Origin: Rhodococcus phenolicus
GTDB lineage: Bacteria; Actinomycetota; Actinomycetes; Mycobacteriales; Mycobacteriaceae
Direction: 5' to 3'
DNA: 64,000 bases
Assembly (NCBI RefSeq): GCF_001646785.1
Contig: NZ_LRRH01000005.1
Location: 124,001 to 188,000 of the forward strand
Both the position numbers and the translations under genes were made by a program. Every line of letters starts with the position of its first letter. The first letter of the stretch is position 1. The notes below the pieces were generated by a model. That model was not told the origin of the DNA and did not search any database. It saw nothing but the letters and a program-made list of their open reading frames with translations. Positions 1,369 to 53,168 of the stretch are shown here, in pieces.

Positions 1369-2261
1369 CGCGCGCTCCTGTCCTCGACGGCGTGACCGAC
1401 GCGGTGGGCGGAGAGCACGACGGCCACGATGACCAGGCCCGGCAGCGTCGTCATCCACCACGCCGTGGCCAGGTAGTTGCGTCCCTCCGAGATGAGCGAC
1501 CCCCACTCGGGAGTGGGCGGGACGGCTCCGAAACCGAGGAAGCTCAGCGACGACACGGCGAGCACTGCCATCCCGAATTCCACGGCTGCAAGGGCCGTGA
1601 CGGGTGCGTACGAGTTGCGCAACACGTGACGGCGGAGCACGGTGTGCCACCGGACGCCGCATGCGAATGCCGCTTCGACGTACAGGGCCCTGCGTACTCG
1701 CAGTACTTCCGAGCGCATGACGCGCGCGAAGTTCGCCACGAGGCTCACACCGACCGCGATCGCGACGTTCATCGTGCCGAAGCCGAGTGCGGTGACCAGC
1801 GCGAGCGAGAGCAGCAGCGAGGGGATGGACAGCAGAACGTCGACGATGCGCATGAGTGCCGCGTCGAGGGCACCTCCGACCGCACCGGACAGGAGCCCGA
1901 AGAGCGAACCGACGAGCAGTGCGATCCCGACAGCGACGAGTGTCGCCGTGAGTGAGAGCCCGGCGCCGTGCACGACGCGCGTGTAGACGTCGCGGCCGAG
2001 ATTGTCGGTGCCGAACCAGTGTGCGGTGCTCGGTCCCTGCAGTTTCTCGGCGGGCACGCCCTGCAGCGGGTCACCGGAGGCGAACACCGACGGAAACAAC
2101 GCGAATCCCACTGCGAGAAGCAGGACGACCGAGGAGACCGAGAGCACGGTATTCCGTCGCAGCGCCGCCGCGACGGACGCGACACGGAACGTTCTGTGCG
2201 AGGCCGGTTCCGGCGGCGGCGAGGCCGCCGGTGCCGTCACGCGGATCAAGGTGTCAGACAC
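1365..2261 (-). CDS. Oligopeptide-type ABC transporter permease (DppC-like)
   Basis: Inner-membrane permease of 298 residues. After a hydrophilic N-terminus, a transmembrane helix at about residues 38-58 is followed by a periplasmic stretch with the DppC-typical HWFGTDNLGRDVYTR motif and then the BPD transport core. The EAA-type loop is around EAAFACGVRW. The GTG start overlaps the end of the DppB-like gene by 8 bp, so the two permeases are co-translated. It should pair with the DppB-like subunit to form the channel. Length and motifs match the family. Confidence 0.93.
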   Translation of the reverse strand: MSDTLIRVTAPAASPPPEPASHRTFRVASVAAALRRNTVLSVSSVVLLLAVGFALFPSVFASGDPLQGVPAEKLQGPSTAHWFGTDNLGRDVYTRVVHGAGLSLTATLVAVGIALLVGSLFGLLSGAVGGALDAALMRIVDVLLSIPSLLLSLALVTALGFGTMNVAIAVGVSLVANFARVMRSEVLRVRRALYVEAAFACGVRWHTVLRRHVLRNSYAPVTALAAVEFGMAVLAVSSLSFLGFGAVPPTPEWGSLISEGRNYLATAWWMTTLPGLVIVAVVLSAHRVGHAVEDRSAR

Positions 2262-3264
2262 GTGCTTCGACCTCCGGGAGAGTGTCGTCGTGAGCCGGGC
2301 GCTCCTCGGCCGATGCCGCGGCGTTGCGTTCGATGCCGTGCGTGATCCGCGGGTCGAGGAGGGGATAGAGCAGGTCGACGGCGAGGTTGACGAGCACGAA
2401 GACGGTGGCCGAGGACACGACTATTCCCTGCACCACGGGAATGTCCTGCGCCATCACCGACATCTGGGCGAGCCGTCCGATACCGGTGCGGGAGAACACG
2501 GTTTCGACGACCACGGATCCCGCGAGCAGGTTGCCGACGATGACGCCGGCGATCGTGAACGCCGGGATGCTCGACAGCTTCAGGGCGTGTCGCGCCTGGA
2601 TGCGCAGCCGTGATGCGCCTTTCGCGCGCGCGGCCTCGATGAACGGCTGCCGCCAGGTCGTCTGCAGGCTCGTCGCGAGCACCTGCGCGATCACCGCGCC
2701 GGTGGGCAGTGCGAGCGTGATCGCCGGAAGGATCACGGTTTCGATGCCCTGATCTCCGAAGGCAGGGAACAGTTTCAGTCGGAACGAGAAGAGTTGCAAC
2801 AGGATCAGGCCCACCCAGAAGGTCGGCACGGCCACCCCGAGAGGGGGAAGCGAGAACAGCAGGTTCCGCAACCATCCGGCACGTGTGTAGGTCGCGAGGA
2901 ATGCGACCGCCGTGCCGAACACCAGGGCGAGCACCAGTGCTGTGCCCGCCAGTACGAGAGTGCTCGGCAGGGCAGCCGCGATCGCGTCGGTCACCTGCTG
3001 ACCGGTGGAGATGGAGATGCCGAAGTCACCCTGGACCGCGTGGCTCAGCGCATTCCAGTACTGCACCGGGACCGGCTGATCCAGGCCGTAGCGCGCCTGG
3101 AGCTGTTCGATCGCAGCGGCATCGACGGGGGTGCCGGCGTCGGCACCGGCCGCGATGCTCACCGGATCGGACGGCAGCAGATAGAGCACCGCGAACGACA
3201 CCGTGAATGCCGCCCACAGCACACCGACGGCCTGGAACAGGCGGAACCCGAGGTAGCGCACCAT
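2254..3264 (-). CDS. Oligopeptide-type ABC transporter permease (DppB-like)
   Basis: Inner-membrane permease of 336 residues with an N-terminal transmembrane helix (residues 5-30), a short external domain, and a C-terminal BPD core with about five helices. The EAA loop reads EAARAKGASR. DppB proteins have this size and arrangement. The start is an ATG 3 bp after the stop of the solute-binding gene, so the operon reads binding protein, DppB, DppC, ATPase. Substrate specificity is set by the binding protein, not by this subunit. Confidence 0.93.
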   Translation of the reverse strand: MVRYLGFRLFQAVGVLWAAFTVSFAVLYLLPSDPVSIAAGADAGTPVDAAAIEQLQARYGLDQPVPVQYWNALSHAVQGDFGISISTGQQVTDAIAAALPSTLVLAGTALVLALVFGTAVAFLATYTRAGWLRNLLFSLPPLGVAVPTFWVGLILLQLFSFRLKLFPAFGDQGIETVILPAITLALPTGAVIAQVLATSLQTTWRQPFIEAARAKGASRLRIQARHALKLSSIPAFTIAGVIVGNLLAGSVVVETVFSRTGIGRLAQMSVMAQDIPVVQGIVVSSATVFVLVNLAVDLLYPLLDPRITHGIERNAAASAEERPAHDDTLPEVEARV

Positions 3265-3267
3265 GTT

Positions 3268-4896
3268 CTACTCGCTCAGCCAGGTGTCGAAGAACTGCAG
3301 CCGAGCCGACGCCTCGAACTTCAGGTCCGCCACGTTCGGTCCGGCACCGATCGCCTGCGACAGTTCGACGGTGGGGATCCACAGGCCGTTGTCGAGAACG
3401 AGCTGCTGTGCCTGCTCGATGAGGGCGGCACGAGCATCCGGATCCGTCGTGGACAGTTGGCGGTTCAGCACGTTGTCGAGCTCGGGGATCGGGCCACGCC
3501 GGTTGAGGTTGCGACCGTCCAGGCCGAACGCGGTGCGCAGGATGTCACCGTCGGCGCGGGTGCTGTTGTAGTAGGTCGACTCGTAGTCACCGGCATTCTG
3601 CCGGGCGGTGCTCTCGGGAGTGGAGACGAGGTCGAGCTGCAGGTCGATGCCGACCGCACGCAACTGCTGCTGCACCAGTTCGAGAATCGCCTGGTTGCCG
3701 GCGAACACGGAGCTGAAGAGCACCGGGAAGCTCAGGCGCTGCCCGTCCTTGACGCGGATTCCGTCGGGGCCGGGCACCCAGCCCGCGTCGCCGAGGATCT
3801 TCTCCGCTTTCTGTGGGTCGTGGGTGACGTCGGCGAGTTCGAGATATCCGGGAGTCGCGGACGCGAGGGTGCCGGCGGCGGGGCGGAAGTCGGGACCGAG
3901 GACGGTGTCGACGAGTTCCTGCCGGTCGATCGCCGGAATCAGTGCGCTCCGGACGGCCGGATCGGCGAGTACGCCGCGGCTGACGTTGGGCTGGAATCCG
4001 AACGGAATGCCCGGGTTCGGCGTGGTGAGGATGCGGCCGCCGGCACCTTCGATCTGCGGGGCGTCCTGCGGTAGCGCATCCGAGATCCCGTCGAGCTGCC
4101 CGGACGCGAGCGAGCCGGTGCGGACTCCGGATTCGGGAACGATGGTGAATTCGATCCGGTCGAGGTACGCCTCACCGTCGTGTCCGAACGCCTCGGACCC
4201 CCACGCATATCCAGCACGCTTGACGAGCGTCGCGGACCTGTCCTGCTGGTAATCCTCGTAGACGAACGGCCCGGTGCCGGAAAGCTCTCCCGCGCAGCGC
4301 TCCTCGGCACTCTTCGCGGTGTCCGCAGCCGAGAGCAGACCGAGTTGGTGGCTGGCGGTGGCCTGCAGGAAAGGCGCGTTCGGAGCCGAGAAGTTCACCT
4401 GAGCGGTGCGGTCGTCGACGACAGTGGTTCCGGTGTACCCCGCGAGGAAACCGACGGCCTGGGGTGCCTTCACTCCGCCGAGGGTGTTCACGATCGCGTC
4501 GAAGTTCTTCTTCACGGAGTCCGCGGTGAACGGGGTGCCGTCGCTGAAGGTCACCCCGTCCTTCAGGCGGAAGGTGAACTGCGTGCCCTCGGCGTTCGAT
4601 TCCCAGCTCTCCGCCAGCCACGGCACGATCGCACCGGTCTCGGGATCCTGGTCGGTGAGCGAGTCGACGACCTGCCGGGCAACGTAGATGGTCTGGTTGC
4701 TGCCGGCCTGAGCCGGATCCGCGCAGGTCGGTGCCTGCGACAGCCCGTACCGCAGAGTGCCGCCGGGCTGTGGATCCCCGCTGGGCTCCGAGGTCGCCGC
4801 AGTGCCGGACCCGCACGCGGTCAGTGCTGCGCCCAGCACAGCCGCTGCAGCCGCCGTGACGACGAGCCGGGACACAGAAGAGGACAAGATGGACAA
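3268..4896 (-). CDS. Solute-binding lipoprotein of the oligopeptide/nickel family (SBP_bac_5)
   Basis: Extracellular receptor of the importer, 542 residues. A lipoprotein signal peptide ends in LTAC with the lipidated Cys at residue 28. The mature part has family 5 features (GGTLRYGLSQAP near the N-terminus, then LAESWE and FRLKDGVTFSDGTP). I chose the TTG at 4894-4896 because GGAG lies 7 nt upstream; a second in-frame TTG three codons later is possible. A cysteine-containing leader ORF (4984-5070) ends 87 bp upstream of the start, which suggests a sulfur-containing ligand such as a thio-peptide or organosulfur compound. That ligand is inference; the fold assignment is firm. Confidence 0.9.
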   Translation of the reverse strand: MSILSSSVSRLVVTAAAAAVLGAALTACGSGTAATSEPSGDPQPGGTLRYGLSQAPTCADPAQAGSNQTIYVARQVVDSLTDQDPETGAIVPWLAESWESNAEGTQFTFRLKDGVTFSDGTPFTADSVKKNFDAIVNTLGGVKAPQAVGFLAGYTGTTVVDDRTAQVNFSAPNAPFLQATASHQLGLLSAADTAKSAEERCAGELSGTGPFVYEDYQQDRSATLVKRAGYAWGSEAFGHDGEAYLDRIEFTIVPESGVRTGSLASGQLDGISDALPQDAPQIEGAGGRILTTPNPGIPFGFQPNVSRGVLADPAVRSALIPAIDRQELVDTVLGPDFRPAAGTLASATPGYLELADVTHDPQKAEKILGDAGWVPGPDGIRVKDGQRLSFPVLFSSVFAGNQAILELVQQQLRAVGIDLQLDLVSTPESTARQNAGDYESTYYNSTRADGDILRTAFGLDGRNLNRRGPIPELDNVLNRQLSTTDPDARAALIEQAQQLVLDNGLWIPTVELSQAIGAGPNVADLKFEASARLQFFDTWLSE

Positions 4897-4924
4897 CGAC
4901 GGGCTCCATGATCTGGACAGTGCA

Positions 4925-4951
4925 CCGGCGGCGTGACGCGAGCGGCGCCGG
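4925..4951 (-). promoter_or_regulatory. Hairpin between leader ORF and transporter operon
   Basis: CCGGCG and CGCCGG form a six-pair stem, with one more G-U pair on the RNA and a 15-nt loop, in the 87-bp gap between the leader ORF stop and the TTG of the binding-protein gene. There is no U-run after it. It is therefore more likely a structure affecting ribosome access or Rho action than an intrinsic terminator. A regulatory role is inferred only from its position downstream of a cysteine leader. Confidence 0.35.
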
Positions 4952-4983
4952 CGGGCGGAAGGAAGGTGGATTCGACGCGGATC

Positions 4984-5070
4984 TCAGCGACCGCGACACC
5001 TGGCCCCGCAGTGGCGGCACAGGTCGACGTGGATGCGTTCCCACGCATCCACCAGGCCGTCGCTCGTCAT
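4984..5070 (-). CDS. Cysteine-containing leader peptide, probable attenuator
   Basis: A 28-codon ORF starting at ATG 5068-5070, with GGAGG ending 5 nt upstream. The C-terminal half is ERIHVDLCRHCGARCRGR, with Cys at 18, 21 and 25. Short ORFs with an R/I-H-V-D-L-x-R core and cysteines near the stop occur ahead of sulfur-assimilation and sulfonate-use operons in actinobacteria, where ribosome stalling at Cys codons is thought to report cysteine shortage. Here it precedes a four-gene ABC importer. The ORF and Shine-Dalgarno site are directly visible; the attenuation mechanism is inferred by analogy. Confidence 0.7.
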   Translation of the reverse strand: MTSDGLVDAWERIHVDLCRHCGARCRGR

Positions 5071-5417
5071 CTTCTCCTCCATCGTTCCCGGCGGTAGCAC
5101 CCTCACCTGCCGGAGCAGGGGGTTGCTGCGACGTCGTCGAGCCAGGTCTCTCGGTCGCTCTGGATGGTCGTTGCAGACGGTAGCGACCTCCCGGTCCACG
5201 GAATACCTTTTCCGTCATCGCGATCGAAACCTGTCCGGCGATACCGGCGGTCACCGGCGGCAGCGCGAATGTGGTCATTCGCCTCGCAAGGGCACCGACG
5301 ACACCGCGTGTTCGCGATGCCACGGGGAAAAACGGGCGGGGAGAAAACGTATGTGTGGGGGTCTCCAGGTCGCTCCGGTTGGTTCGTTCCGAATCCAGGC
5401 GTCCGGGCGCAACCGGA
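5071..5417. other. Non-coding stretch upstream of the leader ORF
   Basis: I see no convincing gene on either strand. It should contain the promoter of the minus-strand leader/ABC operon. The 5200-5420 part, near the degraded ATPase remnant, has no recognisable coding signal and may be further decayed sequence. Confidence 0.5.
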
Positions 5418-5745
5418 TCACCTTTCCCTCGACGCGATTCGAATTCTGCCTCGGCCGGGGATATTCGCCGAATCGATCTGAGCCGACATGTTGAGCAGGC
5501 CGTGGACCTGGGTGGCGGCGTTACCCGGTATCCGGTTGTTCAGTCCCTTCGGTGCCTGCGTGGTGAAGACGAGACCCAGACCGGTAATTGCGGGCCTGGG
5601 AGGCGAGGGCCAGCGTGCTCAGCGTGCACGCGCTGGTCTGGCCGGACGGCGCGAACGTCTGCGCTTCGTCCATCACGAACAGACCTCCCAGCGGTCGTTC
5701 ACCGGCAGGGTTCTTCTCGATCCAGGCGAACGGTTGACGAACCCT
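5418..5745 (-). pseudogene. Remnant of a HerA/DUF853-like ATPase, frameshifted
   Basis: Two adjoining minus-strand frames encode one recognisable protein segment. The first (5584-5745) contains PLGGLFVMDEAQTFAPSG, the Walker B region of HerA-type helicase ATPases, running into LALASQARNY. One extra base at 5583 breaks the frame. The second frame (5582 down to a stop at 5418) continues with GLGLVFTTQAPKGLNNRIPG and then VHGLLNMSAQIDSANI, the expected continuation. The N-terminal Walker A part and the C-terminus are missing, so only about 90 codons of a protein of roughly 500 residues survive. It is a decayed fragment, not a functional gene. Confidence 0.7.
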
Positions 5746-5768
5746 ACAGCCGGCAGGGCCCGCGGAGT

Positions 5769-6134
5769 TCAGCCGGTTTCGGCCGCCCACGCGATCGCGG
5801 CGGTGCGCTCGGCCAGCGGGAAGCGCTTGAATTCCCCGGGCGTCATCCACCCGAACAGGGAAGTCACGGTGACCATCCAGTCCAGGTCGGTGACGAGCGC
5901 GATCCGCTCCCAGCGGGTGAGGTGCTCGACGCCGAGTTTCATGTCGTCCCATGCCGCGCCCGCGGAGACCCCGTCGAACCGCTCGAACACCAGCACTATC
6001 CGGATTCCGCCGCCTCGATCGCAGATTTCGCGCACGGCGGGCATCAGCACGTTCTCGTAGTCGGAGGCTTCGAGCCGGCCCACCGCCTCGAAGCCGAGGA
6101 CACCGTCGGGTAGGTCTCGGATCGGTTCGAGCAT
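5769..6134 (-). CDS. SpoIIAA-like (STAS-fold) protein
   Basis: A 121-residue cytoplasmic protein with the pattern of the SpoIIAA-like family: LPDGVLGFEAVGRLEASDYENVLMPAV at the N-terminus (positions 8-34) and a central IRIVLVFERFDG strand. The WERIALVTDLDWM segment and the C-terminal MTPGEFKRFPLAERTAAIAW also match. These proteins are related to the anti-sigma antagonist/CRAL-TRIO fold, but their ligands are mostly unknown. It is monocistronic, divergent from the TauE/SafE gene, and lies just upstream of the ATPase remnant. Start ATG 6132-6134. Confidence 0.8.
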   Translation of the reverse strand: MLEPIRDLPDGVLGFEAVGRLEASDYENVLMPAVREICDRGGGIRIVLVFERFDGVSAGAAWDDMKLGVEHLTRWERIALVTDLDWMVTVTSLFGWMTPGEFKRFPLAERTAAIAWAAETG

Positions 6135-6457
6135 GGCGACAACGGTACCGCGGCGGGCTGCCGGACAGAGCCGATTGCGGCAATCGGGCCGGGTACTTCT
6201 CGAACGGGTGCGGCCCGATCGCCTCGGCGGGGCGCCCGGATTGGACAGGGCGGAGTCCCGGCCGCGAGATACAACGCGACCGCTTCGGGCTGCCGCCAGC
6301 CGGTGGTCAGGTAGATTCGAACGTTCTTCTCGCGCACCCCTCCCGCGCGCGGGTGATGGGAACCGATATTCGGTCTGTCCGGGTGAAGGTTCCCCCCACC
6401 GGGCAGCGCGAGGTGGACGGTGAGGGACGACGGCGGCCGGTCCGTAGACTCCTCGCG
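6135..6457. other. Divergent intergenic region, no gene seen
   Basis: The 323 bp between the divergent SpoIIAA-like and TauE/SafE genes should carry both promoters. I see no convincing ORF, repeat or RNA structure here. A longer in-frame extension of the TauE/SafE gene runs through it, but its translation is arginine-rich and low complexity, unlike a protein N-terminus. Confidence 0.45.
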
Positions 6458-7231
6458 GTGACTGCGTTCGAACTGTTTCTCGTCGCCCTCGCCGGCCTGG
6501 GTGCCGGCGCGATCAACGCCCTCGTCGGCTCCGGCACCCTCATCACGTTCCCGACTCTCGTGGCGTTCGGTTTGCCGCCGGTGACTGCGACGATGTCGAA
6601 TGCGGTGGGGCTCGTCGCCGGTGGCGTGTCGAGCACGTGGGGATACCGGCGCGAACTGCGCGGTCAGTGGCCGCGTCTGCGCTGGCAGATTCCGGCATCG
6701 CTGACCGGCGCGGTCCTCGGGTCGTGGCTGCTGTTGCACCTGCCGGAGTCGGCGTTCGAGACGATCGTGCCGGTCCTCATGGTGCTCGCACTGATTCTCG
6801 TTGTGCTGCAACCCAAACTGCAGAAGTGGGTGCTGGCGCGGGCCGGCGGGAACCGTGACGACCACATCGGACCGGTGCGCATGACGATTCTCGTCGCCGG
6901 CACCTTCGCCATCGGTGTGTACGGGGGCTATTTCACCGCAGCGCAAGGAATTCTGCTGATGGGCCTGTTCGGTGCGCTGCTGCACGACAACATCCAGCGG
7001 CAGAACGCGGCGAAGAACCTGCTCTCGCTCCTGGTGAACATCGTCGCGGCCACCGCGTACACCCTCGTTGCGTTCGACCGGATCGACTGGACGGTCGCCG
7101 GGCTCATCGCGGTCGGTTCGCTGATCGGCGGCGCGCTGGGTTCGCGCTACGGCCGGCGGCTGTCGCCCGCGGCGCTGCGCGGCGTCATCGTCGTCGTCGG
7201 CCTGATCGGCCTCTACCGCCTGCTGGCGTGA
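6458..7231 (+). CDS. TauE/SafE-family (sulfite exporter-like) membrane permease
   Basis: A 257-residue integral membrane protein with about eight predicted helices. The family hallmark GLGAGAINALVGSGTLITFP is near the N-terminus (residues 12-31), and the repeated half contains YGGYFTAAQGILLMGLFGAL. The family moves anions such as sulfite, sulfoacetate or other organosulfonates. The GTG at 6458 was chosen because it opens the first hydrophobic helix directly (VTAFELFLVALAG); no strong Shine-Dalgarno site is visible. It is followed after 20 bp by the HAD phosphatase gene. Substrate is unknown. Confidence 0.88.
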   Translation: MTAFELFLVALAGLGAGAINALVGSGTLITFPTLVAFGLPPVTATMSNAVGLVAGGVSSTWGYRRELRGQWPRLRWQIPASLTGAVLGSWLLLHLPESAFETIVPVLMVLALILVVLQPKLQKWVLARAGGNRDDHIGPVRMTILVAGTFAIGVYGGYFTAAQGILLMGLFGALLHDNIQRQNAAKNLLSLLVNIVAATAYTLVAFDRIDWTVAGLIAVGSLIGGALGSRYGRRLSPAALRGVIVVVGLIGLYRLLA

Positions 7232-16713: not shown

Positions 16714-17005
16714 GCCCCCGATCCTAGGTGGGCGTCGATCGCCGCCGGTCGGGGCATATTTGCCTGAATAAACCCTCTCGAGGTAGGAATTGCCCATGGC
16801 CTCTGCACACCTCGTTCGACGTCTCGCCGTCGACCTCTGTCGTGTGTCTGCCCATATGTGTTGTCGCTGAAGCGATTCCCTGCCCAGCTGCGTTCCCTGC
16901 GCACTCGCCGCCCGTCTGCCGCGGCATTGTGTCGGCCCATCAGAGGGCATCCTAATTTAAGCTGAACCACGTCCGTCCGTTCTCCGAAGAGGTAGTTGAC
17001 CCCTG

Positions 17006-47702: not shown

Positions 47703-47719
47703 GTCCATCCTCGTGGTAG

Positions 47720-47885
47720 CGATATTCGGCGCAGGTGTCCTGGCTCCCGGATCGACGCTCTCCCCCGGCCTTCCAACCCTGATGGGCCGTGGCCGAGCGT
47801 TGGGGGATCGCTCCTCGGTGACAGTTGCGGGACAGCCCCGGATTCCCACCGGTGTTCCCTACGTCGATTTCGAACAGTACAAGAT
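47720..47885 (-). promoter_or_regulatory. Cobalamin riboswitch upstream of the second btuFCD operon
   Basis: Minus-strand reading shows the class core: GGGAACACCGGTGGGAATCC, then GGGCTGTCCCGCAACTGTCA (invariant part at 47819-47835), and a near-perfect B12 box CCGGGAGCCAGGACACCTGC at 47731-47750. The aptamer ends about 20 bp upstream of the btuF ATG. Translational or transcriptional repression by adenosylcobalamin is expected. It is the clearest indication that this FecBCD-type transporter handles B12 or a precursor. Confidence 0.93.
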
Positions 47886-47997
47886 CGGCGACACCACGCG
47901 TCCCATCGCAACCGTGTCCTGCGTGTGACTCCCGCGTGCACGTCTCCCGTCTGCGGGGCGCATACTGGGGACCTTGTGCCCTGAGCGAGGAGGTCCG

Positions 47998-52884: not shown

Positions 52885-52944
52885 CGCACGCCCCGGAACA
52901 GCACGAAAACAGCCATGTTCAGTCTCCAAACCCTCGTGGACCTC

Positions 52945-53130
52945 GCGTGCCGTGGCCGGTCTCCTGGCTGACGGATCGACGCCGGCCGCACCGACCTTCC
53001 CGGAGGCAACTCCAGTGGTCTCCGCCCCGGCGAACCGGACCGGACGAGGGTGAGCCGACTACCCGCTCACAGTGGCGAGGGCCGCGCCGGTTTCTCACCG
53101 GCTTCCCGAACACCACGGCACGCCGAGAGT
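52945..53130 (-). promoter_or_regulatory. Cobalamin riboswitch upstream of cobN-cobF
   Basis: On the minus strand: GGGAAGCCGGTGAGAAACCG near 53090-53110, CTCGCCACTGTGA for the core, a long peripheral GC-rich region, and the B12 box GTCAGCCAGGAGACCGGCC at about 52953-52971. This is a textbook cobalamin element. The aptamer lies about 60 bp before the cobN GTG. It should lower cobaltochelatase and CobF synthesis when B12 is plentiful. The cobG operon on the other strand starts just beyond it and is not directly downstream. Confidence 0.95.
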
Positions 53131-53168
53131 AGCGCACCTCCTGGGCAGGTATGCAACCATGTGCGGCC

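Follow-up and report, generated by a model that had tools for sequence, protein, structure and literature searches.

In a 64,000-nucleotide stretch of the Rhodococcus phenolicus genome (hereafter the window), a SAM riboswitch aptamer lies directly ahead of a short cysteine-rich leader ORF, and the P1 helix of this aptamer runs into the Shine-Dalgarno (SD) sequence of the leader, which in turn precedes an importer operon. We regard a riboswitch-gated leader peptide as the probable overall explanation of this arrangement. In its fullest form, to which we give roughly even weight, the proposal is that of a two-input gate within one mRNA leader: a SAM riboswitch would license a nascent-peptide sensor that stalls only when cysteine is short, and an otherwise leaderless-looking peptide family would here have become a portable riboswitch cassette, present in seven or more actinobacterial genera and for the most part ahead of sulfur importers.

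The leader ORF (28 codons, MTSDGLVDAWERIHVDLCRHCGARCRGR) occupies positions 4984-5070 on the minus strand, on which the other parts of the riboswitch, leader, and operon also lie, and its SD sequence GGAGG (5076-5080) stands 5 nt upstream of the ATG. Its cysteines are found at codons 18 (5017-5019, the C of H-V-D-L-C-R), 21 (5008-5010), and 25 (4996-4998, the C-terminal Cys). A preliminary description of this locus had already pointed out the 28-codon cysteine leader with its GGAGG site, and also the spacing of 87 bp and the four-gene ABC operon that follows; all of these are borne out. From the leader stop to the best start of the first gene (TTG at 4896) there are 87 nt, and that gene encodes a substrate-binding protein of the peptide/nickel class (SBP_bac_5; 3268-4896; PF00496, 244 bits), whose nearest NCBIfam model, TIGR04028, scores 317.6 bits, short of its cut-off of 468.5. 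Next come a NikB/DppB-type permease (2254-3264; PF00528; NF045470, 266.6 bits, below the cut-off), a NikC/DppC-type permease (1365-2261; PF00528; NF045474, 245.6 bits, below the cut-off), and a double ABC ATPase (1-1368, start judged by eye) that runs off the window edge. Beyond the window, the operon strand carries two luciferase-type monooxygenases of the NtaA/DmoA family (L002:4677-5867 and L002:3293-4663), one of which exceeds the TIGR03860 cut-off of 279.7 bits (411.8), with the other below it (209.8). The presence of these DmoA-family enzymes in the operon agrees with the earlier reading of a leader ahead of a sulfur-type importer, and the operon content is compatible with organosulfur scavenging.

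Some neighboring features can be mentioned here. The same genome holds a paralogue of the substrate-binding protein (42% identical; G000:C33:6655-8223, plus strand, L172) that has no SAM box. On the opposite strand, the operon is adjoined by a gene for a TauE/SafE family protein (5951-7231, plus strand; PF01925, 154 bits), a group that includes sulfite exporters, although the first part of this ORF is probably non-coding. At 5488-5770 (minus strand), inspection by eye suggests a disrupted stretch whose reading frames look like a relic ATPase-like gene; it is adjoined by a SpoIIAA-like gene at 5769-6134.

The aptamer belongs to the S box (SAM-I) class. When the whole window was searched with the Rfam covariance models, RF00162 matched positions 5076-5170 with 55.0 bits (gathering threshold 44.4, E 6e-10), which is the sole match in this genome, and the 3' end of the match lies 5 nt ahead of the leader ATG. 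Folded alone, the aptamer is predicted to form a four-way junction, in which the P1 5' strand CCAUC (5163-5167) pairs with the 3' strand GAUGG (5079-5083). The last two bases of the latter are at the same time the first two of the leader SD, the sequence from P1 to SD being GAUGGAGG, followed by 5 nt and the AUG; since the overlap amounts to two bases, masking of the SD would be partial or steric. Among 53 distinct aptamers, each of the five P1 pairs forms in all 53, those of P2 in 52-53, those of the inner P3 in 51-53, and those of the outer P3 in 45-52. Compensatory changes occur in P2 and P3, and the core positions are invariant across seven genera, so that the SAM-I assignment has both the covariance score and the P1/P2/P3 junction helices behind it. 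In the 55 leader-bearing boxes described below, the final eight aptamer bases read GATGGAGG in 37, GATGGAAG in 14, GATGGGTG in three, and GATGGATG in one. With a SAM riboswitch directly upstream, a P1 that enters the leader SD, and a pairing kept in seven genera, the stand-alone cysteine attenuator of the preliminary description, which overlooked the riboswitch, is not supported as a full account of the locus. SAM control of the leader is, on these comparative grounds, well supported.

Upstream of the aptamer, a candidate -10 element (TACCGT, 5177-5182) is placed such that transcription would begin near the aptamer 5' end. Its TAnnnT position is kept in relatives: in 51 of the 53 distinct loci with a leader, the pattern starts between 9 and 16 nt ahead of aptamer position 1, compared with a control rate of 0.6% in equal windows further upstream. 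We infer from this placement a transcription start at or near P1. At three boxes before permeases, namely L036 (G108:C7:193863), L080 (G095:C20:30316), and L047 (G175:C1:2409386), the P1 end is no longer SD-like (GATGGTCG, GATGGAAC) and the gene start lies further downstream of the box; these may have another expression platform or be in decay. Elsewhere in the window there are two cobalamin riboswitches, both on the minus strand (47713-47911, 94.7 bits; 52937-53132, 85.8 bits).

The linkage of box and leader is a recurrent one. A search of 251 genomes of the family with RF00162 gave 108 matches in 69 genomes, and the downstream sequence was examined for 104 of these boxes. When a leader is defined as an ORF that starts no more than 24 nt from the box and contains the motif H-[VILAM]-[DEN]-[LMW]..R, 55 of the 104 boxes are directly followed by one, compared with a mean of 0.1 and a maximum of one when the downstream bases are shuffled (20 rounds). 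A narrower motif yielded 51 of 104, the 55 being the count for the wider motif without a length cap. Two cysteine leaders that fall outside the motif and were recognized by eye (in G234, MNICTCTHA, and in G041, RRCIDLCR) are excluded from the 55.

In an independent scan, a DNA pattern combining the P1 end with the H-V-D-L-C-R codons was run against one genome per species for 84,980 species; because it demands a Cys codon, this pattern is uninformative on cysteine conservation. It returned 61 matches in 59 stretches, 60 of which are in-frame leaders starting 1-9 nt past the P1 end; the lone match without an in-frame leader, in a metagenome bin (L146), has no RF00162 either. The matches come from Rhodococcus, Rhodococcoides, Williamsia, Kineococcus, Blastococcus, Geodermatophilus, and Pseudonocardia. 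The Rfam scan covered 16 of the 59 stretches, namely those outside Rhodococcus and Rhodococcoides, and found RF00162 above the gathering threshold directly upstream in 13; a second scan added L153 (44.4 bits) and L137 (42.1 bits), so that a SAM box lies directly upstream in all 15 in-frame leader loci outside these two genera. The comparison of the upstream ORF in other genera, which had been put forward as a check of the preliminary description, thus reveals a box-leader pair conserved in seven genera. In three Blastococcus loci (L164, L168, and L169), the pair lies about 1-1.5 kb or less from a tmRNA gene. A sampling at class level found the RF00162 box in 264 of 394 genomes, and no leader was seen downstream of the eight best boxes in that sample.

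In 42 distinct homologous leaders, cysteine makes up 123 of 1235 residues (10.0%), whereas it accounts for 0.58% in the comparison set, made up of the longest ORFs downstream at these loci, an enrichment of approximately 17-fold. The substitutions among leaders are mostly synonymous when the available sites are allowed for, with a pN/pS of 0.31 (35 pairs) for the leader and 0.28 (all pairs) for its core. This pN/pS of 0.31, together with the difference in cysteine content, indicates that the leader peptide is under selection. The cysteine codons themselves, on whose conservation among relatives the preliminary description had made its case depend, are largely kept: the cysteine that follows the HxDL-type motif (codon 18 in the window) is present in 40 of the 42 distinct leaders and absent from two, and two or more cysteines are likewise found in 40 of the 42. 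The two leaders with a single Cys both precede an OsmC gene. Because conservation extends beyond the Cys codons, R-x-H-[VI]-D-L-C-R...C is perhaps a true arrest peptide.

The proposed kinship with the R-x-H-V-D-L-x-R leaders of actinobacterial sulfur operons is supported. The core is shared, but NCBIfam NF042934 scores the window leader at 21.1 bits (E 1.7e-4; 19.6 bits in the genome search) and thus below its curated cut-off of 27; the window leader resembles NF042934 leaders by motif and position and is not filed as a member of the family. The same genome contains four further leaders above this cut-off, plus weaker ones, and a SAM box was sought at six of these other leaders and found at none. 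By eye, four of the six lack an SD and carry TAnnnT six or seven nt ahead of the start codon, which makes them look leaderless; a fifth has a near match to the -10 element, and the sixth is unclear. The near match belongs to a second Cys leader in the window (16796-16870, plus strand, MASAHLVRRLAVDLCRVSAHMCCR; NF042934 22.7 bits, below the cut-off), with the near -10 element just upstream and, behind it, a gene whose product resembles a ferredoxin-NADP reductase. As judged from these sequences, the same peptide motif occurs in two forms, namely leaderless without a SAM box and SD-led behind a SAM box, and the former implies that the motif can stand without SAM control.

Mycobacteria reportedly possess leaderless poly-Cys sORF attenuators, of the type that Canestrari is said to have described in 2020, which start at the first codon of the transcript without an SD and carry their Cys codons near the sORF 3' end, and through these codons expression reportedly responds to cysteine. 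The window leader shares the position of the cysteines (18, 21, and 25 of 28 codons), which are not consecutive, and departs from the leaderless form in being preceded by an aptamer and by a GGAGG that stands 5 nt from the ATG.

Which genes stand behind the boxes was established by tblastn with reference proteins, since several of the longest-ORF picks were in the wrong frame. Fifty-one of the 55 leaders precede importer genes and four an OsmC-like gene. Expressed per gene family, a leader is found at 25 of 29 boxes before SBP5-type importers, 24 of 32 before cystine-type permease operons, both boxes before SsuA-type binding proteins, and four of five before OsmC-like genes (the fifth having a variant leader). 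No motif leader occurs at boxes before the monooxygenase groups (0/8, 0/14, and 0/2; in the second group an acetyltransferase gene comes first at three boxes), before OpuAC-type binding proteins (0/4), before an FAD/NAD-binding protein (0/3), or before five others. Outside the family, the pair precedes a MetN-like ATPase (L135; under the MetN cut-off, NIL domain present), a rhodanese (L115), and a DmoA-family monooxygenase (L131). Thirteen of the 61 pattern loci had no match to the reference genes, and L135 and L115 are the ones among them that were then tested. The idea that the leaders are confined to importers was dropped in view of the four OsmC-like cases, L131, and L115.

The box is also used without the leader. 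At the 49 leader-less boxes, an ORF of 150 aa or more starts 0-15 nt after the box in 24 cases and 16-45 nt after it in 11, and in 14 there is none within 45 nt; among the 55 leader-bearing boxes, no such ORF lies within 15 nt. These direct boxes include those of cystine-type permeases (G154 and G144:C60) and of one SBP5 (G119, with a box below the gathering threshold at 39.3 bits); another SBP5, at G184, is counted among them with an ambiguous start. Cystine-type permeases and SBP5 are gene families that bear a leader elsewhere. The placement of the same box at the start of 24 main genes argues that the box is active.

Between leader and operon lies a C-rich gap (4897-4983; C 44%, G 28%), which we consider a candidate Rho region. 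C exceeds G in all 48 distinct leader-to-gene gaps, which span 33-243 nt from leader stop to gene (48 loci; approximate, as start picks are heuristic); the excess is moderate, with 12% of control windows from downstream genes reaching the observed median. The small GC hairpin that had been pointed out in this gap is no more stable than shuffled sequences (z +1.08), and no intrinsic-terminator-like site was found in positions 4800-5300, so the terminator and antiterminator hairpins of a classical ribosome-mediated attenuator do not follow the leader. A perfect 8-bp hairpin (GGATGCGT GGGA ACGCATCC, 5031-5050) lies within the leader ORF itself, just before the H-V-D-L-C codons. It is more stable than shuffles in the window (z -2.68 and -3.27 in two computations), and similar stems are predicted in two close relatives; as a general part of the leaders it was rejected, since 46 distinct leaders average a z of 0.0. 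Finally, a single-sequence fold and a seven-row consensus fold both predict that the leader start region pairs with the importer start region. The whole leader folds with a z of -1.04. Averaged over 25 loci, the start-region duplex has a z of -0.71, with values of -1.2 to -2.75 at four loci of the own genus. We keep this predicted pairing as a lead only, weak as it is outside the own genus.

Taken together, we propose the following mechanism, in which SAM binding, SD closure, leader translation, Cys stalling, and the sign of the stalling effect are inferred. Transcription would start at the aptamer. At high SAM the S-box fold would be stabilized, with the P1 3' strand GAUGG hiding the first bases of GGAGG; translation of the leader would then not be initiated, and the operon would be off. 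At low SAM the SD would be open and the leader translated. If Cys-tRNA is short as well, the ribosome would stall in H-V-D-L-C-R...C and the importer and monooxygenase operon would be expressed; if cysteine is plentiful, the leader would be finished quickly and the operon would stay mostly off. The leader would thus act as a relay from the SAM sensor to the operon that adds a cysteine signal, the operon being fully on only when both are low. Cysteine sensing is argued from the Cys enrichment and by analogy with the cysteine leaders of other actinobacteria. The last step would most likely be Rho-dependent termination in the C-rich gap whenever a stalled or translating ribosome does not protect it; alternatively, the importer start region may be opened. 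As for the sign, genes directly under the box should be off at high SAM, so a leader ahead of the same gene families should relay the same sign, and its translation would therefore have to favor expression.

Three other readings deserve consideration. Leader translation alone might set the operon, by coupling, RNA unfolding, or Rho protection, the Cys codons and the motif being kept for another reason (e.g., a product peptide or an inherited cassette). We think this rather unlikely, even though it builds on the P1/SD link, the best supported part of the whole, and could draw on the start-region pairing predicted in the four own-genus loci (z -1.2 to -2.75) and on the two distinct OsmC-type leaders with a single Cys. 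It would leave the approximately 17-fold Cys enrichment and the retention of DLC in 40 of 42 distinct leaders unaccounted for, it sits poorly with the other motif leaders of the same genome that lack a SAM box, and the long-range pairing it might use is weak overall. Those same box-less leaders speak for the converse reading, that of a degenerate or inactive S box and a leader that acts as the cysteine attenuator first proposed; the modest score of the box (just 55 bits) and the short P1 in the leader boxes of the family point the same way. Against it stand a score above the gathering threshold, a P1 that forms in every one of the 53 distinct aptamers, an invariant core and covarying helices over seven genera, and the same box at main-gene starts in 24 loci, which together make it very unlikely.

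The sign of the relay could also be reversed, with a translated leader that inhibits and a SAM-closed SD that relieves the inhibition, so that the operon would be on at high SAM. There is precedent for an inhibitory uORF in a riboswitch leader, since in M. tuberculosis the uORF of the metE leader lowers gene expression when it is translated (PMC11260477), and the sign could thus be the opposite one. Orthologous importers, however, are elsewhere placed directly under the same box, where high SAM should switch them off, and there would be little sense in inducing a sulfur-compound importer when sulfur is in excess; we therefore hold this reading to be hardly probable at all.

The elements of the proposed riboswitch-gated leader are each already known: SAM-I riboswitches, cysteine leaders, riboswitch-uORF relays (ppe2 and pe20), and a combined leader of the mgtA/mgtL type. 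As in translational SAM switches, RF00162 here places a P1 strand beside an SD, but the adjoining SD is that of a regulatory leader peptide and not that of the regulated gene. Candidate cys leader peptides have been described in actinobacteria (PMC1262725). Like these leaders, NF042934, and the mycobacterial sORFs, the window ORF is short, Cys-rich, and placed before sulfur genes, has the R-x-H-V-D-L-x-R core, and lacks an intrinsic terminator, with Rho suspected; unlike them, as they are described as leaderless, it has an SD beside a riboswitch P1, and its cysteines are spaced and not in a run.

Riboswitch-uORF relays are found in M. tuberculosis. A B12 riboswitch controls a uORF whose translation the ppe2 gene needs (PMC11260477). 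The ppe2 uORF stop overlaps the gene start (AUGA) and the two are coupled by reinitiation, whereas here 33-243 nt lie in between and the uORF resembles an amino-acid sensor. The pe20 Mbox is likewise a translational riboswitch on a conserved uORF with Rho-dependent termination, and Rho is reported to act after riboswitches with uORFs in this organism (PMC12810186); the Mbox ligand is magnesium, and its uORF is thought to encode a product instead of a sensor for a second metabolite. The main termination site of pe20 lies upstream of the uORF (PMC12810186), which calls for caution with a model of Rho acting in the gap. Salmonella mgtA/mgtL, finally, combines a metabolite-sensing RNA and a peptide with amino-acid-dependent translation speed in one leader (PMC6460261). 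There, peptide translation and RNA folding compete within one region in a terminator-type switch, whereas here the riboswitch lies upstream and should gate the sensor peptide, and the inputs would be SAM and cysteine, not magnesium and proline. In the literature searched, which included few subscription papers, no report of a SAM riboswitch ahead of a cysteine leader was found, nor was the string "HVDLCR."

If the proposal is true, a riboswitch decides whether the cell produces a second sensor, namely a stalling leader peptide, in the first place, and cysteine and SAM are read in series. As relatives also carry this aptamer directly on main genes, some of them from the same families, nature provides matched pairs with and without the relay, in which the contribution of the leader is directly testable. 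The finding would moreover link a motif curated as "putative leader peptide" to a defined sulfur signal, and the box-leader pair may serve as a sulfur-regulon marker for importers and monooxygenases without a known substrate.
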